A DNA stretch of 64,000 nucleotides from Magnetococcales bacterium (lineage in GTDB: Bacteria; Pseudomonadota; Magnetococcia; Magnetococcales; UBA8363), in contig JADGCV010000021.1 of NCBI GenBank assembly GCA_015228815.1, positions 1-64,000 on the forward strand, written 5' to 3'. Both the position numbers and the translations under genes were made by a program. Shown here piece by piece: positions 95 through 18,509 of this stretch (position 1 is its first letter; the number at the start of each line of letters is the position of its first letter). Under the pieces are notes generated by a model. The model was not told the DNA's origin. It made no database searches and worked only from the letters and a program-made list of their open reading frames with translations.

Positions 95-3000
95 GTTTCA
101 ATCCGCGCCCCCGCACGGGGGGCGACTTATACGGATTATTTGTTTTCGTCAACAAAAGTTGTTTCAATCCGCGCCCCCGCACGGGGGGCGACCATTTTCG
201 AAAAGTTACCACTTGCGGAAATTATAGTTTCAATCCGCGCCCCCGCACGGGGGGCGACCTCTTTTTTGCTCGTCACGGTGGCGGATAGGGCAGTTTCAAT
301 CCGCGCCCCCGCACGGGGGGCGACGCAACTGGCTCGTCGGAATCAGCAAAACGAGAAATGCAGTTTCAATCCGCGCCCCCGCACGGGGGGCGACTTGATT
401 ACTCTTTCTTGGTAGTCCCGTCAGGAGTTGTTTCAATCCGCGCCCCCGCACGGGGGGCGACTGCGCAGGTCGTTTCTGGACAATCGTTCGTCCTGGTTTC
501 AATCCGCGCCCCCGCACGGGGGGCGACATAGCACCAAGGCCGAGGATGTGCAGCGGCTCATGTTTCAATCCGCGCCCCCGCACGGGGGGCGACCGGTACA
601 GGACGTTTTTGTGTGCCATGGCACAATGTTTCAATCCGCGCCCCCGCACGGGGGGCGACGAGCATGATGACTACTTGCAAATCATCATGCGGGTTTCAAT
701 CCGCGCCCCCGCACGGGGGGCGACCGCCTTCTTGGCGCGACAATATGTCTTTATTTGCGTGTTTCAATCCGCGCCCCCGCACGGGGGGCGACATCATATC
801 TGAGGGAGACAATAAATGACTACAGAGTTTCAATCCGCGCCCCCGCACGGGGGGCGACCTATTCTCATAAAATCATCGACCAGAATGGGATTGTTTCAAT
901 CCGCGCCCCCGCACGGGGGGCGACGTGTCCATGATGGTGGCCCAAGCTGTGTCTGGGAGGTTTCAATCCGCGCCCCCGCACGGGGGGCGACTTTATTCAT
1001 CGACGGATGGCGAAGCATGGTACATGTTTCAATCCGCGCCCCCGCACGGGGGGCGACCAGCAATATGCTGACTTTGTCGATCAAATGGAAAGTTTCAATC
1101 CGCGCCCCCGCACGGGGGGCGACTGATCAAGGCGGATGCTCCATCTTCCGCCTTTACGTTTCAATCCGCGCCCCCGCACGGGGGGCGACCTTCGACTCAA
1201 TTTTCAACCTCAAATTGGCGTCGTTTCAATCCGCGCCCCCGCACGGGGGGCGACGAGCGATGTAATTGATGTAATGGTGTTTGGAGTGTTTCAATCCGCG
1301 CCCCCGCACGGGGGGCGACCAGGTCGGTACAAAAATGCTCCTGTACCGTGCAGTTTCAATCCGCGCCCCCGCACGGGGGGCGACCCTTGCGGCGGACAGC
1401 CTCTGATACGACATCAGACGTTTCAATCCGCGCCCCCGCACGGGGGGCGACGTCGGACGGGATTGGCTTGGACGACAAAAAATGGTTTCAATCCGCGCCC
1501 CCGCACGGGGGGCGACGAGGGATTTATGGACTGGCCCAGTACATCACTTGTTTCAATCCGCGCCCCCGCACGGGGGGCGACATTAGTCAATTCATGGAGG
1601 ATTCGACATACAACGGTTTCAATCCGCGCCCCCGCACGGGGGGCGACTCAATGGACTCCGTTATCGTATCACTGGCGGACAGTTTCAATCCGCGCCCCCG
1701 CACGGGGGGCGACTAGAATTGTTCAATTGCTCTGGCGTCCCAATAAGTTTCAATCCGCGCCCCCGCACGGGGGGCGACTCAAGCTACTCTTGATGATTTC
1801 AACGTTGAGACGTTTCAATCCGCGCCCCCGCACGGGGGGCGACCCGTCCAGCTAATACCTATCCAGCCAGACAGGCGTTTCAATCCGCGCCCCCGCACGG
1901 GGGGCGACCATGAGCCGCGGCTGGCCGTTCATATCGAAGCGGTTTCAATCCGCGCCCCCGCACGGGGGGCGACGATTGTTTCCTTCCAGTTTATTATATT
2001 TTCGCAAGTTTCAATCCGCGCCCCCGCACGGGGGGCGACTCTTCGCCATCGTTGGTCGTCCATGCCATGACGTGTTTCAATCCGCGCCCCCGCACGGGGG
2101 GCGACCCCCCTTCGAGATCACACCGTCACCAGGGAGGAGTTTCAATCCGCGCCCCCGCACGGGGGGCGACGACATCTTGCAAATTATCATGCTCACTTAC
2201 CTCGTTTCAATCCGCGCCCCCGCACGGGGGGCGACCACAAAAAAGTCATTTGCATCACCATATCCAGGTGTTTCAATCCGCGCCCCCGCACGGGGGGCGA
2301 CCGTTCAAAAACGTTACTTGGATTCGACCGAAAATGTTTCAATCCGCGCCCCCGCACGGGGGGCGACAAGCTGTTATCAACGGGAAGCGGTATGATACTG
2401 AGTTTCAATCCGCGCCCCCGCACGGGGGGCGACACACCGTTGGGTGGAAATGAGGTGGCGGGGGGGGTTTCAATCCGCGCCCCCGCACGGGGGGCGACTA
2501 ATCCCATCATTTTGCATCAAATAATCATGTAAGTTTCAATCCGCGCCCCCGCACGGGGGGCGACTTATGGTACGCAAAATGTTATATTGCGTGCAAAAGT
2601 TTCAATCCGCGCCCCCGCACGGGGGGCGACTCCAGCAAGGATGATTAATGCTCAACTTCAATTGTTTCAATCCGCGCCCCCGCACGGGGGGCGACTTTTC
2701 GCTTATGCATCCATTCTTGGATGCAAAGGCGTTTCAATCCGCGCCCCCGCACGGGGGGCGACCGCCTGGACTGCCGCCAGGGCCGCACAATTAGTGTTTC
2801 AATCCGCGCCCCCGCACGGGGGGCGACATCGGTACGCGAATCCCTTCAGTCTTAATGATCTGTTTCAATCCGCGCCCCCGCACGGGGGGCGACGATTCGG
2901 CGGCCTTCTGAGAGACAAATATATAGGTTTCAATCCGCGCCCCCGCACGGGGGGCGACGCTTCCAGGGCCATCCGTTTTTTTGCCTCCACCTGTTTCAAT

Positions 3001-5058
3001 CCGCGCCCCCGCACGGGGGGCGACCCGTAAGGTCTTGGCTGTGATCAATACCCTTGCGTTTCAATCCGCGCCCCCGCACGGGGGGCGACCAGAGATCAAG
3101 GAGCACTTCCCCCGGTCTTGTTGTTTCAATCCGCGCCCCCGCACGGGGGGCGACTAGACCTTGATACCAAATCGGCCCTCTGTTGCAAGTTTCAATCCGC
3201 GCCCCCGCACGGGGGGCGACCGTCCAACCGTAGGGAGGACGCCACCGTGGGTGGGTTTCAATCCGCGCCCCCGCACGGGGGGCGACCCGTTGCTGCTTCC
3301 ATTACCGCTTCCATGCTCTCGTTTCAATCCGCGCCCCCGCACGGGGGGCGACTTTCCCATGGGGCGAGGGGGATCTTGCCGATCACGTTTCAATCCGCGC
3401 CCCCGCACGGGGGGCGACTTTGGATCGCGCCATGTGGCGCGCTGTGCCTGGCGTTTCAATCCGCGCCCCCGCACGGGGGGCGACAAGCAGATTGCGGCAA
3501 GCGACCTGCGTGTTTACGTTTCAATCCGCGCCCCCGCACGGGGGGCGACAATCTTTGATCACATTGACGCAATGTTTTGATATGTTTCAATCCGCGCCCC
3601 CGCACGGGGGGCGACACGAGCTGGCGCATAGGTACAGCTTATCCTGGCGTTTCAATCCGCGCCCCCGCACGGGGGGCGACGACCGATCGACTGGCAAGTA
3701 CGATTGATCATCCAAGTTTCAATCCGCGCCCCCGCACGGGGGGCGACATGCCGTGGCGGGCAAATCCGGGTGCCATGGGAGTTTCAATCCGCGCCCCCGC
3801 ACGGGGGGCGACCAGTTATTTGAATACGCCAGTATCTCTTTACAGGTTTCAATCCGCGCCCCCGCACGGGGGGCGACTAGGACCGGGCAGTCCGTTCAAG
3901 GTCCGCGACGGTTTCAATCCGCGCCCCCGCACGGGGGGCGACGGCGGGATTGCCGCCAAGACCGGTCACGACATTTGTTTCAATCCGCGCCCCCGCACGG
4001 GGGGCGACAAGGGTCTCGCCAAGGCCGTCACCTACGATGGCGTTTCAATCCGCGCCCCCGCACGGGGGGCGACCTGGCCAAGCTGGCCGAAAGGAGGTTC
4101 GCTGAGGGTTTCAATCCGCGCCCCCGCACGGGGGGCGACCTTTTCCAGTCCGCCTTGCCGGTGGTGACAAACTGTTTCAATCCGCGCCCCCGCACGGGGG
4201 GCGACGATAGGAGTGACAGGTCAACGTGCCGCTGCCGTAGTTTCAATCCGCGCCCCCGCACGGGGGGCGACATCCAGGCCGACCCGGATCCAATTCGAGG
4301 TAAATGTTTCAATCCGCGCCCCCGCACGGGGGGCGACTGCCTTAAATCGTATCAATAGTCGTGAGGAAGCGGTTTCAATCCGCGCCCCCGCACGGGGGGC
4401 GACCAGGGTGAGTGTGGTCTTTTCTCACCAAGAGTGGGTTTCAATCCGCGCCCCCGCACGGGGGGCGACTCCATTACTTTATTTTCTTTTTTTGGATCTT
4501 GCGTTTCAATCCGCGCCCCCGCACGGGGGGCGACCGCCTGGGGCAGGACGTCGTCCGGGTGGACGAGGTTTCAATCCGCGCCCCCGCACGGGGGGCGACC
4601 ATTGATGTTGGCGTCGTTGCCAGGACAGACGTGTTTCAATCCGCGCCCCCGCACGGGGGGCGACCATCGAAGGAGAGGCTGAAAGGGCAAAAGCAAAGGT
4701 TTCAATCCGCGCCCCCGCACGGGGGGCGACTACATGTTGCGGTTAATGTCGGGGTAAATTCTGCGTTTCAATCCGCGCCCCCGCACGGGGGGCGACGTTC
4801 TCCGACCGCGGAGAGCCTTCCCGCAAGAGGTTTCAATCCGCGCCCCCGCACGGGGGGCGACTAGTCATTTATTGTCTCTCTCAGATATGATAGAGGTTTC
4901 AATCCGCGCCCCCGCACGGGGGGCGACTCTCCCTGCCGCGTCACGGCGGCAGGTCAATCCTGTTTCAATCCGCGCCCCCGCACGGGGGGCGACCTTCCTG
5001 GCGCGACATTTGATAAAAAAACAAAAGTTTCAATCCGCGCCCCCGCACGGGGGGCGAC
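95..5058 (-). CRISPR. Type I-C CRISPR array, 76 repeats and 75 spacers
   Basis: A 32-bp repeat occurs 76 times, the first at 95-126 and the last at 5027-5058. It is separated by 75 spacers of 33-38 bp, mostly 33-34. Read on the minus strand the repeat begins GTCGCCCCCC and ends GGATTGAAAC, the usual ending of type I-C repeats. It contains a 7-bp stem (CGCCCCC with GGGGGCG) around a 5-nt CGTGC loop. Cutting at the 3' base of that stem, as Cas5d does, would leave the 11-nt handle CGGATTGAAAC, the length known for I-C. By eye all 76 repeats are identical, including the distal one, which is often degenerate in other arrays. The leader and cas2 lie at the 5058 side, so the newest spacers are near 5000 and the oldest near 127. 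Several spacers are related to each other (see findings). Confidence 0.99.
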
Positions 5059-5233
5059 TGCTCCATTGTAACTACAATGGAATGAAAAACATTTCAAGGC
5101 TATTTGCGCGAACCCTTGATAATGAGGTGATTGTTGTAGCGAAAATTTTTCCTTATTATTTATTATCAATCAGATACGATAAACATAAAGATGATGTGCA
5201 ATATGTACGCTAATGGTTCGCGACGAGTCATGC
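5059..5233 (-). promoter_or_regulatory. CRISPR leader (transcription and integration signals)
   Basis: This AT-rich 175-bp gap lies between the cas2 stop and the leader-proximal repeat, where the I-C leader is expected. It has a perfect 8-bp inverted repeat (CCATTGTA, 5063-5070, and TACAATGG, 5073-5080) only 4 bp from the first repeat. A second 8-bp pair, CGCGAACC (5107-5114) and GGTTCGCG (5215-5222), brackets about 100 bp. Leader function is inferred from position and base composition. I did not pin down a -35/-10 pair. Confidence 0.8.
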
Positions 5234-5524
5234 TTATACGATCAGAGGACCCTCAATATTGAATGAGGGTTTTGCACCAATATGCTCAACGCGAGATTCC
5301 CAGTTATTACCAAGATTATAGAAACGGAGGCTGTCTTTTTTGGGATTGATCAATTTTGTCAGGTCATTTTTCAGTGTCACATACTGAGCTGGGTCTACTT
5401 TGCACTCAAAAACAGAGTTTTGGACACGTTGTCCGTAGTCGAGACACTTTTTTGCCACGTGTCGTAGGCGTCGTTGGCCGCCAACATCTGAAGTGGAGAC
5501 ATCGTAGGCGATAAGCAAATACAT
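5234..5524 (-). CDS. cas2: CRISPR-associated protein Cas2 (type I-C)
   Basis: A 96-residue protein of typical Cas2 length. It opens with MYLLIAYDVST, the ferredoxin-like first strand with the conserved Asp8 of the Cas2 fold, and continues with a Cas2-type RRLRHVAKKCLDYG helix. Cas2 dimerises and bridges Cas1 dimers to form the spacer integration complex. The frame stays open upstream, but the ATG at 5524 has an AGGAAA Shine-Dalgarno just before it and gives the family N-terminus. It lies 10 bp after cas1 as the last gene of the operon and directly abuts the leader, the usual I-C order. Confidence 0.95.
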   Translation of the reverse strand: MYLLIAYDVSTSDVGGQRRLRHVAKKCLDYGQRVQNSVFECKVDPAQYVTLKNDLTKLINPKKDSLRFYNLGNNWESRVEHIGAKPSFNIEGPLIV

Positions 5525-5534
5525 TTTGTGTTTC

Positions 5535-6569
5535 CTATTTCCAGAGGAAGGCGGGATAGAGGTCCAAATCACCACGGAGATGACGGGCAAGAAGCCGGGC
5601 CTGAATGTGTGGCAAGAGACCGACTTCCATTTTTTCATTGAGAAATGGATGCGTCAGTGATTCGCGCTTGCGTTCCTGCCAGGCGACCAGAACCTTTTTA
5701 CGAGCCTCATCTTTGAGCAAAACGGCTCCGTTTTCATGGTGGTCAAAATCGTTGGCGGTTATCTGTTTGCGATTGAACAGTCCGAGAACCAATCGATCTG
5801 CCAGAAAAGGGCGAAACTCTTCCATCAAATCGAGTGCCAGGGAGGGACGACCGGGTCGATCCCTATGTAGAAATCCTACGGCGGCGTCCAATCCACAAGC
5901 CTCCAGGGCAGAACGACAGTCATGGGCGAGGAGGGAGTAGGAGAATGATAGCAATGCGTTGACCGGATCACGTGGTGGACGACGGTTGCGTCCATTCAAA
6001 ACAAGGGTGGGATCCTCTGTCGTCAACATATGGGAAAAAGCCCCAAAATAAACGACAGCCGCATCTCCCTCGATTCCGATCAGTGATTCCCGATCTTCTG
6101 TACGCTCGGCACTGCCAACGGATTGTTTCAGAAGCTTGACGGCGTCCTGGATGTGATCATTCCCCAATCCATTCGGACGATCTCGCAGCGTCCGTTGCAA
6201 TGAAGATCGGGAATTTGCGATTTTGGCAAGGATGAACTGTCGCGCAATGAGCAACGAAGCGTCACTCCGATCGGCACGACGATATTGCTCTCGCCGAAGC
6301 AAGACATTTCCCGGAGTAAACCCACTGACAGCCGCCAGAAAACGACCATGGGGGGTGCAGAAAGACAAGGTTACCCCCGATTCGGCGCAGGCAGCCATAA
6401 GATGCGAAGATGCCGAAATATCCCATCCCAGGCAGAGGATTCCATCGAGATTGTGCAGGGGAGCACGCAGTAACACTTCCCCATTCAATCGAACTTCGAC
6501 GGTCTCTCCCGACTTGCCAAGCCACGATCCCTCACGAGTGACAAACAGAGTGTTCAGATAGTGTGTCAT
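5535..6569 (-). CDS. cas1: CRISPR-associated endonuclease Cas1 (type I-C)
   Basis: A 344-residue metal-dependent integrase that inserts new spacers next to the leader. The Cas1 metal site is visible: Glu167 in GIEGDAAVVYFGAF, His235 in GFLHRDRPGRPSL, and Asp247 with the following Glu residues in ALDLMEEFRP. The N-terminal beta-rich domain starts at MTHYLNTLFVTREG. Length and motif order match full-length Cas1, so nothing suggests inactivation. Its ATG overlaps the cas4 TGA by 4 nt (ATGA), which implies translational coupling. Confidence 0.97.
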   Translation of the reverse strand: MTHYLNTLFVTREGSWLGKSGETVEVRLNGEVLLRAPLHNLDGILCLGWDISASSHLMAACAESGVTLSFCTPHGRFLAAVSGFTPGNVLLRREQYRRADRSDASLLIARQFILAKIANSRSSLQRTLRDRPNGLGNDHIQDAVKLLKQSVGSAERTEDRESLIGIEGDAAVVYFGAFSHMLTTEDPTLVLNGRNRRPPRDPVNALLSFSYSLLAHDCRSALEACGLDAAVGFLHRDRPGRPSLALDLMEEFRPFLADRLVLGLFNRKQITANDFDHHENGAVLLKDEARKKVLVAWQERKRESLTHPFLNEKMEVGLLPHIQARLLARHLRGDLDLYPAFLWK

Positions 6570-7237
6570 GGGTCATGATCCAACATGTGACGCAAACCCT
6601 TCCGAAACCAAAGAGAAGCCTGTTCCTCTCGCCCCTCCCGACGGGGAAGACACAATTCCAACAGCGAACAGGCACGACAACGTTTGGCAAGATACCGCTC
6701 CGGTGGGGTCACCCCTTCGAAAAAGAGTTTTTTGACCCCATTGATGGCAACAAGGGTGGTGTTACGCAATTCGGCGGAAATGGTTACCGGAAGGCGATGC
6801 CGGGTCTCGCCATAAAAAAGCGTCCCCTCGGTGATGGAAATTCCCAGCATCTCCTCCAAACACAAAACCTGGGCGCAAAGTTGTACCGTATCGGCCTCAT
6901 GAACCTTTGGCCGCCCCCGTTTGTATTCGATGGGAATCACGGCACTCCAAGGTCCACGTCGCGACCGTCCCAATGGTATCCATTCGACGCAATCACATTG
7001 GCCACCGATTCCCAACTTTTCCGAGAACACAGGCATGCCGTGACGGAGGATGACGCCGGGACGGCGTTCCACCGTTTGTTCATGGACACGTTCGTGAAGT
7101 ACGCCACCTTCCGCCGTCCAACGATTTTCAGCCCAAAGCCGCTCCAGATGGATCAATGCACATTGGCGCGGGCAAAACAGAAAATGTTGCAGGGCTGAAA
7201 TGGGAACATTCGTTCCCATTTCATCATTGCTGCCCAT
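6566..7237 (-). CDS. cas4: CRISPR-associated exonuclease Cas4 (type I-C)
   Basis: A 223-residue Cas4 of the RecB-like PD-(D/E)XK family. Four cysteines that can hold the Fe-S cluster are present: Cys22 in FLFCPRQC, then Cys187, Cys190 and Cys196 in CRACSLLELC. Nuclease residues include His48, Asp82 and the Glu104/Lys106 pair in IPIEYKRG. In I-C systems Cas4 works with Cas1-Cas2 to trim prespacers and choose those with a correct PAM. The stop overlaps the cas1 start by 4 nt. The gene follows cas7 closely in the operon. Confidence 0.96.
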   Translation of the reverse strand: MGSNDEMGTNVPISALQHFLFCPRQCALIHLERLWAENRWTAEGGVLHERVHEQTVERRPGVILRHGMPVFSEKLGIGGQCDCVEWIPLGRSRRGPWSAVIPIEYKRGRPKVHEADTVQLCAQVLCLEEMLGISITEGTLFYGETRHRLPVTISAELRNTTLVAINGVKKLFFEGVTPPERYLAKRCRACSLLELCLPRREGREEQASLWFRKGLRHMLDHDP

Positions 7238-7241
7238 GGAT

Positions 7242-8195
7242 CTACAACCGACGCACCAAGGTCACCTTGCCATTCTCGGTGACCTGCAGACGGTCGCCGA
7301 CATGGATTTTTTCCTCCAAAGGCTTGCCATCCAGAAGAATCTGATAGTCGGAGAAGGAACGAGACGGTCTGTCGGCAGCCAAACGTTCCGGATTCGCCAC
7401 CACCGTCACACGGTCAAACAACACATGGGCAGGCGCGTTGCCCATGGGGGTCTCGTGCCGAAAGATCAGTAGTGCCCGAGGTGTCATTTCACCGCGCGCC
7501 GCCGAGCGATCATGCTCGAACATTTCTTCCAGGGATTGCCAGAGCAATTCGACGTCGGCATCGGAAAAACCTGTCTGCGCCGCCAGGGGAGCACTGACAA
7601 ATCCATGGGTCCGATACAAACCATAGGGAATGGTGAATTTTCGTCCCATGGTACGGTTGTCGCCACCTTGCTTTTCTGCCTCTTCCTTGGTGGTGACCGC
7701 CATACGGGTGATGCTGTGTTCCGCAGTGATGACCGGATCGATGCTCCGTCCGAAGGTGAATTGCACCGGACCACGTACTTGACCGCAGTTGACTCCGGTG
7801 GTCATGACCGCTCCAAAAGCGCGTACATCATAAAAGTTCCCGCACATCCATCTTTTGGCCTTTTCGACATCGTCACCACCACCCTTGCGTTTTCCCTTCT
7901 CGCCCTCCAGAGGAAACCCGCAGGCGATATAGGCCCGTTCATGTTGCTGGTTCAAAATGGCCTTTTCACGTACATAGATTTCATATCCCTGGGGATTTTC
8001 TTTCCCACCCTGACTGTGATCGATACCATGGGACAGCTGGACATAGTTGCGAATTTTGCGTTTGAGACAGACATCGGTCACCAGTCCATGACCGGTTTCG
8101 GCATCCACTCGGGGCAGATTGCCAGCGTCCGGATCACCGTTGGGATTGCCGTCGCGGACGTCGAAAAGATAGATGAAATCATATCTGTTATTCAT
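7242..8195 (-). CDS. cas7: Cascade backbone protein Cas7 (Csd2, type I-C)
   Basis: A 317-residue Csd2/Cas7 RAMP protein with the family N-terminus [20 protein letters not shown] and a [16 protein letters not shown]-like core (here [14 protein letters not shown]). Multiple copies form the filament that coats the crRNA spacer in the I-C Cascade complex. The ATG at 8195 overlaps the cas8c stop by 4 nt (ATGA). Length and motifs look complete. Confidence 0.96.
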
Positions 8196-10003
8196 TCATT
8201 GCTCCCTTGTTTCGCTTCATTGCGGGTAAAAAATGATTGACGTTGATGGTAATAGCCGATGGCAAAGGCTCCCTGTTCCTCAAGAGACAAACTTTTTGGT
8301 ATCTTGTCGATACCGTTCATGATTTCCTGGATCAATCGTTCACGATTGATTTTGGCGCCAGGATTCAATTTGGCCAGGTGGTGTTGATAGGTTCGCAACA
8401 ACCTTGGCATGACCGCTCCCGGCGTGGCGGAAGCGGCGCCAAAGAAACGGTCGCGTATGGTGGCATTGATCCCGGGAAGGGCCTCTTCCTGGGTTTTTTC
8501 CAGGGCGGCAAAGAGACGTCCCATGCGGTAAGAGGGTTCGGTACGTTCGGAATCGAGACTCACAGGTGGTTCTCCTTGGTAATGAGCGGATCGAGTCAGC
8601 CAAGCCTTCAGCATGGCCGCACGACAATAATTGATCACACGATCGGCACGAATGCGGCGGATCAGGGCGGCGGCCAGAGCGTTGGGATAGGGACCTCCTC
8701 CAAGAATGGCACGCAACAGGGCGCCGCCCAACAAGGGAGGAATATCCTTTGTATCACGCACGGTTTCCCGCAAGATTCTCCAGACGGGAATGAACTCGGG
8801 GTCAGGATGTTTGCTGTCAGGACCGTGCTGTACCGCAATTTTCAGTGCGGAATAATGGTCGCGAAGACACTCTATGAAAGAGCCAAGCGTCGAAACGTTC
8901 CAAAAACGGACAGACATGCGTCCGGCGTTGGGTGAGAGTCCCAACAGGTAGAACGGGGTCATCGGGTCGTCTCCGATGACGTTCAAATTGCCGCTGCCAT
9001 GCCGCAGGGCCATCAGAAACCCTTCCATATGACGAAGGGTCTCGACATCCTGTGCGTCATCTTGTCGGTTTCCTCCCGCGCCATCGGTAAAGAAACCGGC
9101 CAGCAGATCTTCGCTAACGGTTTTCTGTCCTGTCCACAGGGCCACCGTGTCTCCTGCCAGGGAAAAACGATGCCGTCCCTTTCGCGGTCCATCCAGAAGG
9201 GCATTGATGGCCGTGCAGTAGCGAAAGGCCGCATGTTGTGACACCGGTGCGTTGAAACTTTGTTCCTTGGCATAGGAGGTGAAGGTTTCGTCGTTGAACG
9301 AAACCAGGGGGGCCCCGGCAGACTGGGTTCCGTGGACCCCCTTGATTTTGGGTTCGTGCAGGCGCGCCATGGACTGATCGGGCAAACCGCTGATCAGACA
9401 CATCCCCCGGACATTTTCCTTGTCGCCCTCTTCAGGAACCGATCCCGGCAGATTTCGGCGCCACCATGCCTGAATGATCGGGCGGTCGTGAACATATTCC
9501 AGCGCCCCCTGGAGTCGAAAGACGCCAAAACCGGTGTTCAATTCCGCCAGATGAGGAAAGTCAACGCCACGTTCGGGACTCCAGGATTCCAGAAAGCGAC
9601 AGACGGCGGAAAATCCCGGATCGGCAATCTGTTGTTCAAGTTCCAGATGGTGTTTGCGAAACGCCGCGAAACAGGCCCGGGTCCGTTCCGGTTTGTCCTT
9701 GGTGTCATAACCCAGAAGATATGTTGCATTGTTCCAGAGAAAACCGGGATGAATGCCGCTGCCGGATGGTTTGGCCTGTCCCGGAACAATCCGCGGTTTT
9801 GCGGTCATGGCCTGTTTGCTTTTGCCATTTTTCAAGGGAATCGTGATCTCTTCACGCTCATCCTGGATGGAGTTCAGTGTTCCGTCCTCGGTCAGGATGA
9901 CGGAAAAAGTCAATTTTTGCTGGCTGAACCCCGGTTCGGCCACCCCATATTCCGGTTCGCGGGCCAGCCGGTCATAAAGATGATACAAGGATTGCAGAAT
10001 CAT
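8192..10003 (-). CDS. cas8c: Cascade large subunit Cas8c (Csd1)
   Basis: A 603-residue Csd1/Cas8c protein starting [13 protein letters not shown], the characteristic family N-terminus. This large subunit reads the PAM and stabilises the displaced strand; in I-C the small subunit Cas11c can be made by internal initiation within this gene. An open frame continues 38 codons upstream, but the ATG at 10003 overlaps the cas5 TGA by 4 nt and yields the family start. The C-terminal helical part (about residues 480-603) is where an internal Cas11c start would lie; I did not identify a clear internal ribosome site. Confidence 0.95.
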
Positions 10004-10746
10004 CGTCCGTACTCCTGGCAGGGGGTCGCCAGGCATGCGGCCAGATCGATGACACCATCCACCATGTGGGCACGGAAAAATCGTGGGACGCACCGTTCGG
10101 TGCAGCAATGCCGCCATCCCTGATCCTTCCGTGCGTCATGGACCAGGTCGTGAAGCATGAAGCCCAGATCTTTCGAACCTTTTAATTCCTCGGGCAATTC
10201 ATTGGTCCAGGCTTCGAATTCTCCCGGTTGTGCCGGACGAACGTGGGCAGAAAACTCCCGGCATCCCAGGTAGGGACGATGAAAACAGGATCCCTGTTGC
10301 AACCGTCGGCGTGCCGTATCCAGGTGTTTGGCGACCGGTTCGGCAGAAAGATCGCCGTTGCGTTCCCGTGGATCCAGCACTTCAATGTGCGCTTCGATGC
10401 CGTAACGAACATCCGTCAAGATCAACCCTGCCCGCTGCTGGCGATTGTCTTCAATAGTAATTCCCAGGTGAACCTTGCCACCCCCCATGGCCTGTTTGAT
10501 CTTGGGGATGGAAACCTTGTGTGGATCCCCCACTTCGTTGCGGCGTATGTTGGTGAAACGGATCGGACGCAAAACCCGGATGCGGTCCACAACCCAACGC
10601 ATCTGCGGCTTCCAGTAGATCGCCTCCAGAATACCCCGGGCCCCGGATGGCGTCATGACATCGTAGGAAACCCGCTCCACCTTCATTTCCGGTCGCGTCC
10701 AACAGGCATAATCGCCCCAGACAACCAGTTGCACTCCATAATTCAT
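10000..10746 (-). CDS. cas5: Pre-crRNA endonuclease Cas5d (type I-C)
   Basis: A 248-residue Cas5d RAMP protein. In I-C systems, which lack Cas6, this subunit cuts the repeat RNA at the base of its hairpin and stays on the 5' handle. Supporting stretches are VWGDYACWTRPEMKVERVSY near the N-terminus and SGARGILEAIYWKPQMRW, the conserved region that carries the tyrosine linked to catalysis in studied Cas5d enzymes. It lies 33 bp after cas3 and overlaps cas8c by 4 nt. The repeat hairpin and predicted 11-nt handle in the array match this activity. Confidence 0.96.
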   Translation of the reverse strand: MNYGVQLVVWGDYACWTRPEMKVERVSYDVMTPSGARGILEAIYWKPQMRWVVDRIRVLRPIRFTNIRRNEVGDPHKVSIPKIKQAMGGGKVHLGITIEDNRQQRAGLILTDVRYGIEAHIEVLDPRERNGDLSAEPVAKHLDTARRRLQQGSCFHRPYLGCREFSAHVRPAQPGEFEAWTNELPEELKGSKDLGFMLHDLVHDARKDQGWRHCCTERCVPRFFRAHMVDGVIDLAACLATPCQEYGR

Positions 10747-10779
10747 GGCCTGGATGCCTCCTTCTTCCAGTTGTTTTCC

Positions 10780-13089
10780 CTAACCGATCAATCGCGCCGG
10801 ATCGATGGGTCCCTTGACACTATTTTTCAAACCTGTAAATGCGTCATAGTCATGTCCCGGATGCGTCAGAATGAAAAACCGACCGTGCAACGGTTCCGGG
10901 TCGATCATCGCATGTTGAATCATCTGGGCGAACTCCCACTCGGGAACGGTGACAATATAACGTTGTAACGTGCGACTGGCCTTCGCAATGAATTCCCTGG
11001 CAGGTTTTTGAATCTTTCTCAATGTTTCCACAAGAGTTTCTGACCGATCATCCCAGGGGATGATGATCGGACGTTGTCCGTCGTCAATAAGGCGAAAACG
11101 TTCGGCAGCGGTTTTGAATTGGAAGGGAAACAGGGATTCCGGGCAACTGCCCAGTTTGAACAGTTGCATGATGTCTCCCTTGTCCCAGTCATGAGTGCCC
11201 TGAGCATTCCAATAATGGAGGCGAAAATAATGGTCGATGGCCTTCAAACCAAGAGGGTCGTTGCCATATTGGGGCAGTTCGATGATTTCACGGGTCAAAT
11301 CCGCGGTTTTCCGTTGTTCTCCTGCCGGGATGTGTTGTTTTTCATGCGGTACGAAGATGAACAGGTTGCCGGTTCTGGCACGGCCTTCGCGATTGCATCG
11401 CCCCGCGGCCTGCACCAAGGAAGGGAGGGAAGCCATGGCGCGCCAGATCACGGGAAAATCCAGATCGACCCCTGCTTCCACCAATTGGGTGGAAACCACC
11501 CGGCACTCCTGTTCTGCTTTGAGCCGCGCTCGAATTTCATTCAAGACGGTGGTTCGATGCTGGGGACACATGCGGGCACTCAGATGCAGGCAATGATCGG
11601 AAACCTTGTCCAGGACATCGAACAATTCCCGGGCATGACGGCGGGTATTGACAATGATCATCCCCTGTTTGACGCCAGCCAGTTGTCCAGCCAGATCGTG
11701 GTCCGTCACCGGTTGCGTGCAATAATGGACCTGAACCCTTTTGAGGGCGGTGAACAATGTTTCAGGGTTGGAAACAAGTTCCCGCATGTCCACCAGGCCA
11801 ATGGGAAAATCGGAACGCCGTCCCAGGGCGGGTTGGGTCGCGGTGCAGGAAACCACCGAGCACCCATAGCGGGCAGTCAATTCTTTCAGAACTTCGAGCG
11901 CGGGTCGCAACAAGGTGACGGGCAGGGACTGGGACTCGTCGAGGATGATCACCGAGCCGGCGATGCGATGCAGTTTGCGGCAACGCCCGGGACGATGGGC
12001 GAACAGCGATTCAAAAAACTGAACATTCGTGGTCACGATTACGGGTGCGTCCCAGTTTTCCGCGGATAAACGGGTATGTTGTGTCTTTGGATCGTCCACA
12101 TCCAGGTTGGCATGATGTTCCAAGACGATTTCAGGTCCCAAAGCGGCCAATGCCTCCCGAAACCGATCAGCGGTTTGTTCGATGATGCTGGTAAAGGGAA
12201 TGACATAGATGACCCGGCGCAAGTCATGGTGGGCGGCATGACGAAGGGCAAACGAAAGTGAGGAAAATGTTTTTCCGCCACCGGTGGGAACGGTCAGGGA
12301 AAAGAATCCCGTTTCGTCTTCCGCTCTGGCACGGCAGGCGCGGAGAACATCATGACGATGGCGATGTACCTGGGTTTCTGCCTCCGGAAACCTCGCCGCC
12401 AGCCATTCATCAAGAGTCTTCGACAATCGCGCCATCCCCGGTCCTTCGCTGGGACGTTGCGCTGCCTTGTCGGGAGACATGAAGCGTTCCGTGGCCAGGA
12501 AATCGGCATCGGTAAGACAGGAAAAAAGCATGCGAATGAACAATGCCGCAGCAAATCCATCCCGTGGCAGGGGAAAAGATTTTGCGGAAAATTGCATGAT
12601 CTTAAGAACTTCGCCAGGGGCACATGATCGCCATTCCTGATCGATGGTTTTGCGCAACCTGTATTTGAGGGCCGATTCCGAAGATTGAGAATCCCAATCC
12701 GCAAGACCCGCATGATGACCGGCGACAACATAGGCCAGAATCAGTCCCAGAGGTCCAAGCATCTCCACCGCATAGTGTGCCCCGGCAGTGGAATGATCGA
12801 CTCGTCCCAGGTCCGAGGCATGACAGTCCGGATCGGTTGCCCTGTGCAGGTAGGTTTGAAAGGCCTGAGTGAATTTGCCCAGGTCATGCCATCGTCCGGC
12901 AATACCGCCAATTTTACGGGCAAAAGTTCGCAGTTCGGTCCTGTGTTCCGGAAACATCCGTTCCGCAAACACTGCCGTCATGGCTTCGACCTGGTTGGCG
13001 TGTCCATGGGGATGTTCCCACAAGGGGTCGTCTATATATCTTTTATCTTCAGATTCTGCCGTCCGTCGATGTGCAATATGAATTATCAT
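10780..13089 (-). CDS. cas3: CRISPR helicase-nuclease Cas3 (HD plus DExH)
   Basis: A 769-residue single-chain Cas3. The N-terminal HD nuclease has His68-Asp69 in GRWHDLGKF, then DHSTAGAHY and AGHHAG. The superfamily 2 helicase has the Walker A loop at 269-274 (TGGGKT), motif II DESQ at 384-387, the SCTATQP motif III and a late QAAGRCNREGR motif VI. Cascade recruits Cas3 to unwind and degrade target DNA. The ATG at 13089 is the first in-frame start and has no strong Shine-Dalgarno. As the first cas gene, it is preceded by an AT-rich region with palindromes. Confidence 0.96.
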   Translation of the reverse strand: MIIHIAHRRTAESEDKRYIDDPLWEHPHGHANQVEAMTAVFAERMFPEHRTELRTFARKIGGIAGRWHDLGKFTQAFQTYLHRATDPDCHASDLGRVDHSTAGAHYAVEMLGPLGLILAYVVAGHHAGLADWDSQSSESALKYRLRKTIDQEWRSCAPGEVLKIMQFSAKSFPLPRDGFAAALFIRMLFSCLTDADFLATERFMSPDKAAQRPSEGPGMARLSKTLDEWLAARFPEAETQVHRHRHDVLRACRARAEDETGFFSLTVPTGGGKTFSSLSFALRHAAHHDLRRVIYVIPFTSIIEQTADRFREALAALGPEIVLEHHANLDVDDPKTQHTRLSAENWDAPVIVTTNVQFFESLFAHRPGRCRKLHRIAGSVIILDESQSLPVTLLRPALEVLKELTARYGCSVVSCTATQPALGRRSDFPIGLVDMRELVSNPETLFTALKRVQVHYCTQPVTDHDLAGQLAGVKQGMIIVNTRRHARELFDVLDKVSDHCLHLSARMCPQHRTTVLNEIRARLKAEQECRVVSTQLVEAGVDLDFPVIWRAMASLPSLVQAAGRCNREGRARTGNLFIFVPHEKQHIPAGEQRKTADLTREIIELPQYGNDPLGLKAIDHYFRLHYWNAQGTHDWDKGDIMQLFKLGSCPESLFPFQFKTAAERFRLIDDGQRPIIIPWDDRSETLVETLRKIQKPAREFIAKASRTLQRYIVTVPEWEFAQMIQHAMIDPEPLHGRFFILTHPGHDYDAFTGLKNSVKGPIDPARLIG

Positions 13090-13238: not shown

Positions 13239-13934
13239 TCAACTGTTATGATGATTTTTTTTCGAGACCGGTTTGTCCGGGCCATCATCATCCTGGGAAA
13301 ACCACTGGGAGAATAGATCGAGAAGGGGAATATCGCTGCTTTCTTCGAGGATTGCGCCAAAATGCAATGCCAGCCAGTTTTCTTCCAGGGAAAGGGGAAG
13401 ATGAAAGAATCCTTCACCGATGATCCGATCCCTGAGTGTGGCCATCAAACCTGAATCGCCAAGGTTGCGGGTGATTGTCAGGGCGTCTTCGGAAATCTCG
13501 ACCCCCTCCATGTTCCCGATTCTTTTTCGCGCCGTTCCGAACAGGTGATCCATCATGCGAATGGAAAAGGAGATCGGCGCGGAATCATGCTGAAATTCCA
13601 TTCCCGACTTTTGTCCGCCAAACAATTTCAGACGCAATTTGAATGTATCGCCATCAATCCGCATCCATTCCGGAATCATGCGGATCAAGACACGGGTATT
13701 TTTGGGTCCAGACAGCAGGAAACCATAATGATCGTCATGAAAAGTCATCTCGACCAGGGACGCATCCTTCATGGAGCGTGCCGCCCGGCGCGCTGCCCGT
13801 TCGACAAGTTGTGGCGACATCATGACAACGCCACCCGCTTTCCGGAACCGGATCGGCAGAAACGGTCCCGCCTTCTCCAGTGCCTTCCGGGCGCCAAACA
13901 GCAGAATCGACTTGAACAGATTGGTTCCAATCAT
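13239..13934 (-). CDS. Hypothetical protein, last gene of the PBP-channel cluster
   Basis: A protein of about 231 residues that I do not recognise. It starts MIGTNLFKSILLFGARKALE and has no obvious signal peptide or metal motif. The middle has a beta-rich look (VLIRMIPEWMRIDGDTFKLRLKLFGG) and the tail is charged and low in complexity (SQDDDGPDKPVSKKNHHNS). The frame is open to a TTG at 14006, 1 nt after the stop of the chemoreceptor-like gene. I prefer the ATG at 13934 because a GGAG lies 7 nt upstream, but the longer form (255 residues) is possible. Its tight position behind the receptor-like gene implies co-transcription and perhaps a partner role in the same pathway. Confidence 0.6.
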   Translation of the reverse strand: MIGTNLFKSILLFGARKALEKAGPFLPIRFRKAGGVVMMSPQLVERAARRAARSMKDASLVEMTFHDDHYGFLLSGPKNTRVLIRMIPEWMRIDGDTFKLRLKLFGGQKSGMEFQHDSAPISFSIRMMDHLFGTARKRIGNMEGVEISEDALTITRNLGDSGLMATLRDRIIGEGFFHLPLSLEENWLALHFGAILEESSDIPLLDLFSQWFSQDDDGPDKPVSKKNHHNS

Positions 13935-14007
13935 TTCCACGCTCCATGGCTTCGGCCCCATGGTATCCCAAAGTGTATCTCCATTCGAACGTATCTGCCG
14001 CCACAAC

Positions 14008-15597
14008 TCATTGAGTCGCCGGGACCGGGGCCGCGGCGCCGGAAGTTGATCCCGACCATGGATCGGTCGCCTTCAGCAATGATTCCATGGATCCCGTCCA
14101 ATGACTCGTTGAACGCAGACATTCCTCCAGAATACCTTTTTCCTCCACGATTTTTTTGTCGAATACGTCCAGCGATGAATGCAATTCCTCCACCCGTGGC
14201 AATTGCTGTTCGTTGGGTTGTCTGAGTTCGACGATCGTTTGCCCACCACGAAGCCCAAGATCGATCAGCTCATCAATTCTTCCGCGAATCTCCTTCACGG
14301 TTTCAGTATCGTTGCCAACCTTTCCCTGGTGATGCTCCAAAAGTTCCGCCACAAGTTCCGCTTCTTCCGCGCTCTTTTGGGCATGCTCCCTGATGTCATC
14401 GGTAAAGACGGAAAATCCCCGGGTTGCCTCGTTGCGAAACGCCTCGGCGGAGGCGTGGGTCGTCAACATGTTGATTTGCATCAACCGGTTCTTGAGCGAA
14501 CGAATCACCTTGACCGTCTCCCGACTGGCGATCAAGGCTTCCCGCGCTTCACGGTCGAGAACGGTGATCTTCTTTTCCGCCTGCCGCAGCAGACCCTCCC
14601 GATGATTCAGTTGTTCCTGGAAGCCACGAGCCGTGGCAATGTTGTCCTCGATCATCCTTTGAATGGCGTTCAGATGTTTCCCCATCCCGACGATCCATCC
14701 GGATTGTTGCCGCTTCTGGTCGTGAACCACCTGGACCATCTGTTCCATGCGCCGAATCGTCGGCAGAACCCCGCGGATCGTTTCTTCAACCTGTCCCGAC
14801 AGGGTTCGATACTCCGTCTCCCGGGCCAACGCCCGTCTTTCGTGAATCCGTTCAATGAGAATGCCAAGAAAAAACAAGACCGCAAGCAGAGAAAAAATAA
14901 TTGAAACCAATATCTTGTAAAAAGAAATCCTGGCAGAGGCGGTATCGGCGACCAGGGTTTGCGACAATCCCTCGATCTGTTCAATCCCATCCTTGATCTT
15001 GTTTTCCAGGCGGTTGGTCTCGTCTTCCATGGCCGAAAGGCTCTTGGCAAGCGAAGCCACCTGTCGCGCTTCCTCCTCCTCGATGGCCACATGGTCCCCA
15101 TTCTTCATCAATTCCGGTTTCATCAGGAATTCATACTGATAGATGCCACGAATCAGGGTGGCGGCAAGATGTTCGAAATCACCATGGAGTTTCTCGATTT
15201 CCTTGAGGGTGGTCTTGATGGCATCCACGGCCCGCATCCGCTCGGGATCTCCTTCCCGCTCCAGCCTTCGCTGCGTTATGTTGCGTCCCTCCAACAGGGT
15301 ATCGCCAATTCTTTTTCCATATTGAATGAATGAATCATTGGCCAGCTCGAATTTTTCCCGATTCCCGATCCTGGCGTTCAAGAGCACTTTGTTGAATTCG
15401 ATGCCCTGACCCAAATGCTCGCGGGCAGCCACGCCGATGATCCGCGACAAAGGAAGATCCAGTCCTCCCAACCGGTTCAGGGTGTCGGTCCATTCCTCCG
15501 CCGCCATCAGGGCAATGGTCAACACCGCCAGCACCGGAAGCGCCACGGCAAAGAATAGAATTTGCAGATGATGGGTAAATCTTAATTTTTCGAGCAT
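14008..15597 (-). CDS. Membrane sensor with a degenerate chemoreceptor signalling tip
   Basis: A 529-residue protein with two membrane helices (about 12-32 and 229-247) around a helical periplasmic domain of about 195 residues, then a long cytoplasmic coiled coil: the plan of a methyl-accepting chemotaxis protein. The tip at 374-402 (QINMLTTHASAEAFRNEATRG and GFSVFTDDIREHA) aligns with the canonical receptor tip ([29 protein letters not shown]) but many consensus residues have changed. It may have lost or altered its CheA/CheW contacts. No HAMP domain is evident. It starts 20 bp after the PBP-channel gene, so the two are probably co-expressed. Ordinary chemotaxis genes are absent nearby. Confidence 0.8.
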   Translation of the reverse strand: MLEKLRFTHHLQILFFAVALPVLAVLTIALMAAEEWTDTLNRLGGLDLPLSRIIGVAAREHLGQGIEFNKVLLNARIGNREKFELANDSFIQYGKRIGDTLLEGRNITQRRLEREGDPERMRAVDAIKTTLKEIEKLHGDFEHLAATLIRGIYQYEFLMKPELMKNGDHVAIEEEEARQVASLAKSLSAMEDETNRLENKIKDGIEQIEGLSQTLVADTASARISFYKILVSIIFSLLAVLFFLGILIERIHERRALARETEYRTLSGQVEETIRGVLPTIRRMEQMVQVVHDQKRQQSGWIVGMGKHLNAIQRMIEDNIATARGFQEQLNHREGLLRQAEKKITVLDREAREALIASRETVKVIRSLKNRLMQINMLTTHASAEAFRNEATRGFSVFTDDIREHAQKSAEEAELVAELLEHHQGKVGNDTETVKEIRGRIDELIDLGLRGGQTIVELRQPNEQQLPRVEELHSSLDVFDKKIVEEKGILEECLRSTSHWTGSMESLLKATDPWSGSTSGAAAPVPATQ

Positions 15598-15617: not shown

Positions 15618-17738
15618 TTACCGGAACAAATGGATGATCGCTCCGAGCATGAGCACCGGATAGAGCACGATGGAGGCAATATCGATCCTGTTGGCCATGA
15701 TCTTGTTGCCATGGATGAAAAAAGAACTGGTAACAACAGTTTCAATAATTGTCAGAAAAATAAGATAGTAGGTCATCATGAAAAAAATATCCGCACGAAC
15801 CAGATAACCAACATCAATCTTGTTGACATTGTGAAAGGACATGGCCGTCAGCAATGCCAATATGCCTAATGAAAACCGGGAGCCAACATATTCATAGTTG
15901 ACGAAAAACTGACTGTAGGCCATCAATACCATGACCAGCAGCGGAAGTAATTTGACAGTGTATTGTTCCCAGTTTCTCCGCAACAATATGTGATAATCAA
16001 ATTGCGAGTGTTCCATCTCGAACAGTTTTTTCTTGTATTTTGGATTCCGATAGCTCCAGATGGTATCCTTCTCTCCGGTGAACTGAAAATGTTTGACGTC
16101 GGTCCATGATTTCAGACTTAGATCGTTGCGCAAAAATGAATCATCGGCAATATCGGTCACCAGGATCAGGTCTTCCTTGACCTGCACCTTGGGTTTGATG
16201 CGGATTTGCAGTTCCTGTTCGTCGAAGGGATACTCTTGAAGCGGAAAGATTCCTTCCATCTGGGCAGAGACATCATAGGAAATAAAATTAAAATTATTCT
16301 CCGGATCAAAATATTTTTCCCGAATCTGCGCTGAAAGAACCTTGCCATAGGTCATTTCAAAATTCAGCTTGGCATTCCAGGTGGGATCCCATCGAAACCA
16401 GAGCAGAAAGTCGGCGGTGAATGAACCGCCAATGGGGTCGAAATCTTTGATTTCCTTGACATGGAGTCCGGTGAAGACAACCGTCGTTCTCTTGACGAAC
16501 CGGCCATTCATCATGAAGGCGTTACTCTTGGCGCCACGCGCCTTGACAAGTTCGGGATACCTGGCATTGCTGAATTGAAAGCGGGCAGGGGCATGGCGAC
16601 CCTCCTTGACCTGGCCGATCGCGATCCGTTTTCGCGAGGCCCCCTCCTCATTGAAATAAATGGGGCCGGTAATGCTTTCGACCGCATCTTCCTCATCGAG
16701 AATCTTGGACAGAACCGTTCGTATCGCCACCCGGTCGGCCCCACCTTTTCTGATCGCATGGGCGAACAGCATGACCGCTTCATAGGCGTGCGTGGCCACC
16801 CAGTCGGGATTGGTCTGAAAGGTTTGCACAAAATCATCCTGGTAGCGCTTCGCTTTTTCCCCAAGAAGATTGGGAAGAAATGGGGTGACGGCATAGACAT
16901 CCTCGGAGTAGATCCCCGCCAGCCTGATAAAATGAGGACCACCAAGGCTTTCCCCGCCAATAAACTCGCATTTCAACCCCTTGTTCTTGATATATTTGAT
17001 GACGTGTGCCGCGTTGGTATAGTTCATCGCCAGAAAAACGGCGCTCGCCTGTCCGAGCGCGCCCAAACCCCTTTCGAGCGGATCGGGATCAAATTTTTCC
17101 GGATTGATGGCAATATCGGCAACCGGTTCCACGGCGTTTATTTTCAATTCTTTTATAAAATAGTCACGCAGTGACTCTCCATACAAATTGCTGGTATTTA
17201 TTATTGCTATTTTGTTTTGGTCAAGACCATGCAATACATAGTTTGCCAGAAATACCGCCTGATAAAAGTCATCGGGGATCAGACTGAAATTTCCAGGATA
17301 CAGGGCGGTTACCTTGGGATTGGTCGCCGACGGGGTGATCAACGGTATTTTCAGTGCATCGTAGATCGGACTGGCTTCGAGTGTCGCGTTGCTGAAATAA
17401 TGGCCAACGACGCCGAGAAGATTTGCATTTCGGGCAAGATGTTCCGCCGCCTTGTGAACGCCTTGATTGTCGGCAAGGTTGCTCTGGTCATCTTCGATGC
17501 GGGCTTCAAGGGTGATGGGTCCCAGTTCACCACTCTGGTTGACATGGGTGATCGCCAGTTCCACCCCCCGACGCATCGATATTCCGACCTCCGAGAAGGG
17601 TCCCGACATCGGTCCCGCCAGACCAATGAGGAAAATCTGCTTTCTCCCACCGTGGAACAGCGTGCCATAAATCAGGCTTCCCGTCAGAACCACGACCAAC
17701 AGCAGCAGCAGATAGACCCTCCGTCGGGACCCCTTCAT
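15618..17738 (-). CDS. Periplasmic-binding-protein / pentameric ligand-gated ion channel fusion
   Basis: A protein of 706 residues from the ATG at 17738, chosen for the strong GAGGAGG 8 nt upstream; the frame is open to 17783. Residues about 8-26 form a signal or anchor helix. Residues about 33-395 are a type 1 (LivJ-like) amino-acid-binding fold: IGLAGPMSGPFSEVG, ARIEDDQ, PSATNP and THAYEAVML. Residues about 420-588 read as a Cys-loop receptor extracellular domain, with FTADFLLWFRW and a Pro-loop YPFDEQ at 503-508. Four membrane helices follow: M1 with KLLPLLVMV, M2 with RFSLGILALLTAMSF, M3 with VRADIFFMMTYYL, and M4 at the C-terminus. This predicts a ligand-gated channel in the inner membrane with two sensor layers in the periplasm. 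Ligand and ion selectivity cannot be read from the sequence. Confidence 0.88.
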   Translation of the reverse strand: MKGSRRRVYLLLLLVVVLTGSLIYGTLFHGGRKQIFLIGLAGPMSGPFSEVGISMRRGVELAITHVNQSGELGPITLEARIEDDQSNLADNQGVHKAAEHLARNANLLGVVGHYFSNATLEASPIYDALKIPLITPSATNPKVTALYPGNFSLIPDDFYQAVFLANYVLHGLDQNKIAIINTSNLYGESLRDYFIKELKINAVEPVADIAINPEKFDPDPLERGLGALGQASAVFLAMNYTNAAHVIKYIKNKGLKCEFIGGESLGGPHFIRLAGIYSEDVYAVTPFLPNLLGEKAKRYQDDFVQTFQTNPDWVATHAYEAVMLFAHAIRKGGADRVAIRTVLSKILDEEDAVESITGPIYFNEEGASRKRIAIGQVKEGRHAPARFQFSNARYPELVKARGAKSNAFMMNGRFVKRTTVVFTGLHVKEIKDFDPIGGSFTADFLLWFRWDPTWNAKLNFEMTYGKVLSAQIREKYFDPENNFNFISYDVSAQMEGIFPLQEYPFDEQELQIRIKPKVQVKEDLILVTDIADDSFLRNDLSLKSWTDVKHFQFTGEKDTIWSYRNPKYKKKLFEMEHSQFDYHILLRRNWEQYTVKLLPLLVMVLMAYSQFFVNYEYVGSRFSLGILALLTAMSFHNVNKIDVGYLVRADIFFMMTYYLIFLTIIETVVTSSFFIHGNKIMANRIDIASIVLYPVLMLGAIIHLFR

Positions 17739-17751
17739 GCGCTTCGCCTCC

Positions 17752-18123
17752 TCAATGAATGGGGGCGGGGATGTTGAAATCATGCGGCGACGGTGTCACG
17801 ACCGGGGGGCGGTCAAGGATGCCGCCTCCGTCCTCCGGGTCGAATTCATGGACGGGACCACCTCCCTCCAGGGTGAAACCGTTCACCGATGGCATTGGAA
17901 CATCATCCGGTTCCACCTCACGGGAAAAATCGCCGCCGCTGCCAATATCCCCAGGGGATCTTTTCGTTCCAAATGGTTCAAGTTCGCCACCTCGCGGTTC
18001 GGTCGCCAATACGGACGCCCCCTGGGCATGGGATTCCAGGCCAACGATCAAAACCAACCAGGCCATCACGGTAGCCAGTGACACTGCAATCCGATGAACC
18101 GTTTTTTTTTCCATGGAAACCAT
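17752..18123 (-). CDS. Small secreted hypothetical protein
   Basis: A protein of about 123 residues with a clear signal peptide (KKTVHRIAVSLATVMAWLVLI, then LESHAQGA). The mature part is short, acidic and rich in Gly and Pro (GGELEPFGTK, DIGSGGDF, PVVTPSPHDF) and probably disordered. I recognise no family. Starts at 18126 (GTG), 18123 and 18114 (ATG) are all possible; none has a good Shine-Dalgarno. Its stop lies 13 bp before the PBP-channel start, so it heads the same operon and may be an exported accessory of the channel. That link is inference from position only. Confidence 0.55.
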   Translation of the reverse strand: MVSMEKKTVHRIAVSLATVMAWLVLIVGLESHAQGASVLATEPRGGELEPFGTKRSPGDIGSGGDFSREVEPDDVPMPSVNGFTLEGGGPVHEFDPEDGGGILDRPPVVTPSPHDFNIPAPIH

Positions 18124-18509
18124 CACCAGACCGCCCGTGTATCCGGATGGATGCGGTTACCCATCCCATGAAGTTGGTTTCGGATGTTTGCCATCAAACT
18201 TGAGCCAAAGCTGAAAGGACACATGGGGAAGGAAGCGAGGAGGGGCCGTTCCCAATCCGGGAAAAAAAAGAAAATGCGCGAATTGCGGTTGACCGGCGGA
18301 ATTCATTCCCGGAAAATGACCGTGGCGAAGGCGATGCCGTTCAAGGTCCTCTCCCGTGTGGCAGCATCAGAAAGGCATCGCTCCTCGCCATTGACGAAAG
18401 TCTGGCTTGATCCATATCCGTTTTTTCCATTGCGGCTTGAAGTGAACCAGGACGAACAAGGTCCGGAAAGGGCTCCTTGACGATGCGCCAGGAGCAGTGA
18501 ATCGATCTC
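18124..18509. other. Divergent intergenic region, promoters expected
   Basis: These 386 bases separate the minus-strand sensor cluster from ccmE. Promoters for both directions must lie here. I see no convincing gene: the longest plus-strand frame (18184-18480) encodes a Lys/Arg-rich string with no recognisable fold and no ribosome site. No RNA gene or clear repeat is visible. Confidence 0.5.

Follow-up and report, generated by a model that had tools for sequence, protein, structure and literature searches.

The in-cell roles of the prokaryotic relatives of nerve receptors are little known. One gene in the 64,000 nt stretch of DNA analysed here (the window), from a magnetotactic-type bacterium of the Magnetococcales, raises the question of whether such a relative is a channel gated by its own built-in amino acid-binding protein and, if so, what the cell uses it for. 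The gene and its parts, numbered along the window, are as follows.

15618..17783, minus strand: predicted PBP-fused pentameric ligand-gated ion channel (pLGIC), 721 aa (uninterrupted ORF, domain and PDB matches, 18 aligned relatives)
17655..17717, minus strand: N-terminal hydrophobic segment, residues 23-43, predicted uncleaved signal anchor (sequence comparison with relatives)
16602..17627, minus strand: type I periplasmic binding (PBP) domain, residues 53-394 (Pfam PF13458, E 3.6e-39; PDB alignments; column counts)
15969..16517, minus strand: Pro-loop receptor ectodomain, approximately residues 423-605, with the Pro-loop FPLxxYPFDxQ at 513-523 (PDB, profile and NCBIfam matches; column counts)
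15621..15968, minus strand: four-helix channel domain M1-M4, approximately residues 606-721, with M2 from R636 (0') (PDB matches; column counts)

Translation from the first ATG (15618-17783) gives the 721 aa protein and translation from Met16 (15618-17738), the start taken in the first-pass annotation, gives 706 aa; either start is possible. The first-pass annotation had read the ORF as one chain joining a LivJ-like PBP to a Cys-loop-receptor-like domain and four membrane helices, with a Pro-loop YPFDEQ. The PF13458, PDB and NCBIfam matches agree with this, and the Pro-loop is present at residues 518-523, with Y, P, F, D and Q invariant in 18 relatives. On these alignments, both the architecture of three parts and the homology assigned to the protein are almost certainly correct. 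HMM searches of each part, which had also been proposed, recovered the PBP (PF13458) and, via NCBIfam and the PDB, the channel, but the Pfam channel models remained below their cut-off.

The window protein scores 15-16 bits (E ~0.02) with the Pfam neurotransmitter-channel models PF02931 and PF02932, which is under the cut-off. NCBIfam LGIC_1 matches residues 506-710 with an E value of 3.3e-12 (46 bits, where the cut-off is 500), and TIGR00860 matches with an E value of 8e-8. These Pfam and NCBIfam cut-offs pick close members and are not a definition of the Pro-loop channel superfamily. Among solved structures, the single channel sequence matched a GLIC-GABAA chimera (E 3e-9), and a 14-sequence profile matched a GLIC-GlyR chimera (E 2e-16), GABAA (E 1e-12) and GluCl (E 1e-11). 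The second half is assigned as a receptor channel because of these structure matches, as Pfam alone gave weak hints. The four C-terminal helices are backed by hydropathy and PDB alignments. An AlphaFold model of the full chain, built from a two-sequence alignment (the window protein and L005), had a pLDDT of 34, speaks neither for nor against the channel fold, and was discarded. A search of the window's own genome with the Pfam LBD model gave no match, but the control was equally empty and the search is uninformative.

Residues were counted over 18 aligned full-length relatives of the channel. F513, L515, Y518-P519-F520-D521, Q523, the pre-M1 R603, the M1 P614 and the M2 R636 (0') are invariant, and L at M2 9' is kept in 17 of the 18. 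At the pore mouth, position -1' is S or T, -2' is A, S, G or P and 0' is R in 18/18, and there is no acidic ring. The acidic residue that GLIC carries at -2' is absent from the window clade. In alignments to solved structures, the pre-M2 segment is the same length as that of animal anion channels; the window protein has G at -2' and L at 6', unlike classical anion channels. Under a pore-mouth rule for ion selectivity discussed in PMC549065, such a mouth is classed as of the anion type. With its homology, Pro-loop and M1/M2 features, the predicted protein is a member of the Pro-loop channel superfamily. It probably conducts, and anion selectivity, predicted from an S/T-R filter without an acidic ring, is somewhat favoured.

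The binding domain matches Leu/Ile/Val-binding proteins in the PDB with E values of ~5e-18 to 1e-17. In the PDB alignments, S131, A153, T154, Y201 and E278 fall on ligand-contact positions of LivJ/Atu2422-type proteins, and we take these positions to be those that hold the alpha-carboxylate and alpha-amino groups in LIVBP-type structures. All are invariant in the 18 relatives except A153, which is found in 17. As aligned, the predicted domain is of the LivJ-type (type I) fold with conserved alpha-carboxylate and alpha-amino contacts. Because the pocket residues are conserved, the ligand is likely to be an amino acid, and the earlier proposal of a built-in amino acid-binding domain is well supported by these invariant positions.

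The N-terminus is hydrophobic over a long stretch in all 18 clade members, with 16-23 uncharged residues where this segment can be delimited. A linker of 7-16 residues then leads to the first PBP strand, and no signal-peptidase site is evident. In the window protein, the PBP starts ~9 residues past the segment and a signal-peptidase motif is absent. In three distant PBP-channels (L064, L066 and L069), the signal ends in AMA and is of the cleavable type. The N-terminus of the window channel looks like an uncleaved membrane anchor and, if it is, each subunit would therefore have five transmembrane helices and a binding domain tethered near the membrane. The binding domain may lie beside the ectodomain, rather than stacked above it. 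The first-pass annotation had likened the layout to animal glutamate receptors. The analogy is weak. What is shared is a convergent use of the binding-protein fold; a simple glutamate-receptor-like stack is disfavoured because the anchor would tie the PBP close to the membrane.

The channel part was found as 20 copies in 18 of 48 Magnetococcia genomes, including that of the window, and the other copies are 52-89 % identical to it. Among named records, the nearest is that of Magnetococcales bacterium DCbin4 (82 % identity). Outside the class, the best relative among 399 evenly sampled genomes of the phylum is only 27 % identical (G164), and no relatives were found in the viral contigs searched. 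As far as sampled, the channel clade appears confined to Magnetococcia.

The genes around the channel gene, all on the same strand, are listed below.

14008..15597, minus strand: MCP-like partner, 529 aa, with TM helices at residues 7-36 and 220-253, a ~190 aa periplasmic domain and a degenerate MCP signalling hairpin, with no HAMP match (Pfam, NCBIfam, adjacency)
13239..14006, minus strand: the gene that follows, encoding 255 aa without a Pfam match; adjoins the pair in the window genome and DCbin4 alone
17752..18126, minus strand: putative secreted protein of only 124 aa that overlaps the start of the channel gene; likewise adjoins the pair in these two genomes alone

The 255 aa and 124 aa neighbours were rejected as conserved parts of the system, as they are present only in the closest relative. 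The window also includes a Type I-C CRISPR-Cas locus (95-5070 and 5234-13089; Cas1c, Cas4, Cas7/Csd2, Csd1, Cas5c and Cas3), with an array of ~76 copies of a 32 nt repeat.

The partner matches Pfam MCPsignal with an E value of 2.5e-8 and 34.4 bits, just under the cut-off of 34.6, while the DCbin4 partner is above it at 42.4 bits. NCBIfam MCP models match the window partner with E values of 5e-8 to 3e-5. No HAMP domain was matched by Pfam after TM2 at E values up to 1, and the predicted protein is named MCP-like rather than MCP. At the hairpin positions that we take to correspond to Tsr N381, E385 and R388, the window partner has H at the first, and the presumed E385 and R388 are retained in most partners. 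The periplasmic part is conserved at least as well as the hairpin.

The partner lies directly after the channel gene, on its strand, in 19/19 checkable cases, with a gap of 4-96 bp or, in L044, an overlap of 24 bp as measured from the listed ORF starts. In the twentieth pair (G005), both genes are at contig ends. Across the 48 Magnetococcia genomes, there are 20 full-length relatives of the partner, in exactly the 18 genomes that carry the channel, and two genomes with two channel copies each (G023 and G024) have two partners each. The remaining matches to the partner in these genomes mostly cover the shared signalling hairpin alone, and a small number of weak matches (E 1e-4 to 1e-6) extend over more of generic MCP-like proteins. 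The co-occurrence gives a Fisher value of 1.4e-13, which is descriptive only, as related genomes are counted as independent, and pairwise divergences of channel and partner correlate (rho 0.88), as expected of any co-inherited neighbours. A functional link between channel and partner is highly likely, but the case that the link is chemotaxis is evenly balanced. The host genome has 15 CheW-family matches. Two partner genes are interrupted, one split between frames (G033, L046:9387-10614) and one with a single in-frame stop near its end (G024, C130), reflecting either sequencing error or decay.

A general pLGIC-MCP rule was considered and dropped, as different genes flank those distant PBP-pLGICs that were examined. 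One adjoins a gene for an Ion_trans-type (voltage-gated-like) channel, followed by GNAT, response regulator and histidine kinase genes (L064:4436-10720), possibly an electrical signalling cassette. Another overlaps a same-strand gene downstream of it that encodes a simple pLGIC (L066:6418-9925), and the two might form a heteropentamer. A third overlaps a gene for an SBP_bac_5 oligopeptide-binding protein (L082:3259-7211), comparable with the PBP-II neighbours recorded in 2004 in the available part of PMC549065.

The search with the channel part also matched proteins of ~1000 aa, over only their first 50-130 residues. These have an N-terminal hydrophobic segment, a binding domain of the same type and an ectodomain-like domain, followed by an MscS pore (Pfam MS_channel_2nd, E 1e-12 to 1e-21, or 9e-5 for one truncated by a contig end). 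They occur in ~20 Magnetococcia genomes and in one other Pseudomonadota genome (L084:4374-7211, G385). Examples of the loci, each beside ABC-exporter/outer-membrane-efflux genes, are:

L059:2327-5431
L062:3246-6353
L058:2866-5964
L075:3012-6086
L060:55-3111

A profile of ten ectodomains from the MscS fusions aligned with the PBP-channel alignment at residues 419-549, the Pro-loop included (hhalign 98.1 %, E 7e-14). The second half of the ectodomain gave no significant alignment between this profile and the PBP-channels, and the profile had no significant match in the PDB. Run on the 399 genomes, it recovered the MscS fusions, PBP-channels (E ~1e-7 to 1e-13) and some simple pLGICs (E ~1e-4 to 1e-5). 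The link of the MscS heads to pLGICs rests on this profile-profile comparison, the genome searches and a bridging protein, L082, in which an MscS-head-like WFRYRGKFD...NATDPI occurs together with YPFDHQ and a pLGIC pore. A tree built from 44 heads places the MscS type (99/98) and the window clade (100/100) in separate groups.

The MscS-type genes adjoin genes for an ABC exporter and an outer-membrane efflux protein (OEP), not MCP-like genes, and an MCP partner for them was rejected on this basis. Because these neighbours differ from the MCP-like pairing, each pore type retains its own gene context. The first-pass annotation included neither the MCP-like partner gene nor the occurrence of the head on MscS pores. 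These sequence comparisons give good support to the existence of PBP-ectodomain-MscS fusions and to homology between the heads. The PBP and Pro-loop-ectodomain head could be a ligand-gating module that is portable between unrelated pores, driving both the pentameric receptor pore and MscS, a reading to which we give equal weight for and against. If true, ligand-gated MscS channels would form a family, in which every version keeps conserved gene neighbours of its own. The MscS pore is heptameric in known members, and one head serving two unrelated pore types would offer a natural experiment in how a ligand signal travels from a receptor ectodomain into a pore, possibly across a change of symmetry. 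Two of the MscS fusions (L111:2106-5534 and L113:2859-6269) have an extra C-terminal cyclic-nucleotide-binding domain, possibly placing them under both external and internal ligand control.

The reading that we favour by a small margin is that an amino acid-gated, probably anion-selective channel acts with its MCP-like partner in chemosensing, and anion selectivity may fail without the rest. An alpha-amino acid or close analogue, the ligand class being that suggested by the invariant pocket, would close the periplasmic binding domain. Its movement would be passed through the Pro-loop ectodomain and open the M2 pore, as in the family generally, and the pore would pass anions, probably, given the S/T-R filter. 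Ion current, direct contact or both would then alter the state of the two-helix MCP-like protein, which would report to the chemotaxis machinery, as suggested by the obligate co-occurrence and the retained hairpin residues. The degenerate hairpin and the HAMP domain not found count against this chemosensing model.

These same features of the partner would suit a channel for ion, osmotic or nutrient homeostasis with the MCP-like protein as an accessory or scaffold subunit, as would the conservation of the partner's periplasmic part, at least equal to that of the hairpin, and the position of the MscS-type relatives in transport operons. However, most partners retain the presumed Tsr E385 and R388, and CheW-type proteins abound in the genome; we consider homeostasis unlikely. 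We place at the same level the proposal that the channel fold is kept mainly as a receptor, which signals ligand binding by direct contact with the partner, with little or no ion flux. Chemotaxis receptors often receive PBP signals by contact, and the pairing is strict with a protein bearing a large periplasmic domain; but R636, 9' L, R603, P614 and the Pro-loop show little or no variation, although a non-conducting scaffold could do without them, and the same head occurs on a second pore type, MscS. That the protein is not a channel at all, with a chance similarity following a periplasmic binding protein, would fit the Pfam channel models falling under their cut-off, but is very improbable in view of the PDB profile match (E 2e-16), the LGIC_1 match (E 3e-12) and superfamily motifs invariant in 18 sequences. 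For the favoured chemosensing reading, the gene pairing suggests that the channel helps the cell to sense food.

PBP-I-channel fusions have been known since Tasneem et al. 2004 (PMC549065), who proposed a chemoreceptor role for prokaryotic members, and the first-pass statement that such channels had been seen in genome surveys holds on the available part of that paper. The PBP-I-fused ART-LGICs of Magnetospirillum magnetotacticum and Bradyrhizobium japonicum described there have the same order of PBP-I, Pro-loop ectodomain and 4-TM domain. The neighbours given in that part are stand-alone PBP-II, Cache and symporter genes, and an MCP-like gene beside a PBP-I fusion is not mentioned in it. PBP fusions are likewise not mentioned in the available part of the 2016 pLGIC inventory (Jaiteh, PMC4795631), as judged by a term search. 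In the open-access papers searched, we found no obligate MCP-like partner or membrane anchor of PBP-channels, and no report of the MscS version of the head.

GLIC, ELIC and the simple prokaryotic pLGICs match the window channel in sequence and likewise have a Pro-loop ectodomain, four helices and a short M3-M4 loop, but no PBP. DeCLIC (PMC12664993, PMC9897478), also a prokaryotic pLGIC, bears an additional periplasmic domain at its N-terminus and is a weak sequence match here; that domain consists of two calcium-sensitive lobes, whereas the window channel has a PBP. According to the 2025 paper (PMC12664993), DeCLIC is the only pLGIC with a partly characterized N-terminal domain. The Leu/Ile/Val-binding proteins and Atu2422 (PDB 4n0q, 2lbp and 3ip5) share the PBP fold and ligand-contact residues, but are soluble ABC-transporter subunits with no pore fused. 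In animal ionotropic glutamate receptors, a PBP-type domain also regulates a channel, but the pore is an unrelated tetrameric P-loop and a separate invention. Compared with MscS-superfamily channels, including the cyclic-nucleotide-binding ones, the window channel has a different pore, though the MscS pore of its relatives bears the same head, twice with a C-terminal cNMP domain. The PBP-channel fusion itself was already known; what is new here is the pairing with an MCP-like gene, the invariance of the amino acid contacts together with the anion-type S/T-R pore mouth, the likely anchor and the MscS version of the head. To a role proposed in outline in 2004, the strict pairing of channel and MCP-like genes adds a concrete and testable form, electrically or contact-coupled chemosensing.
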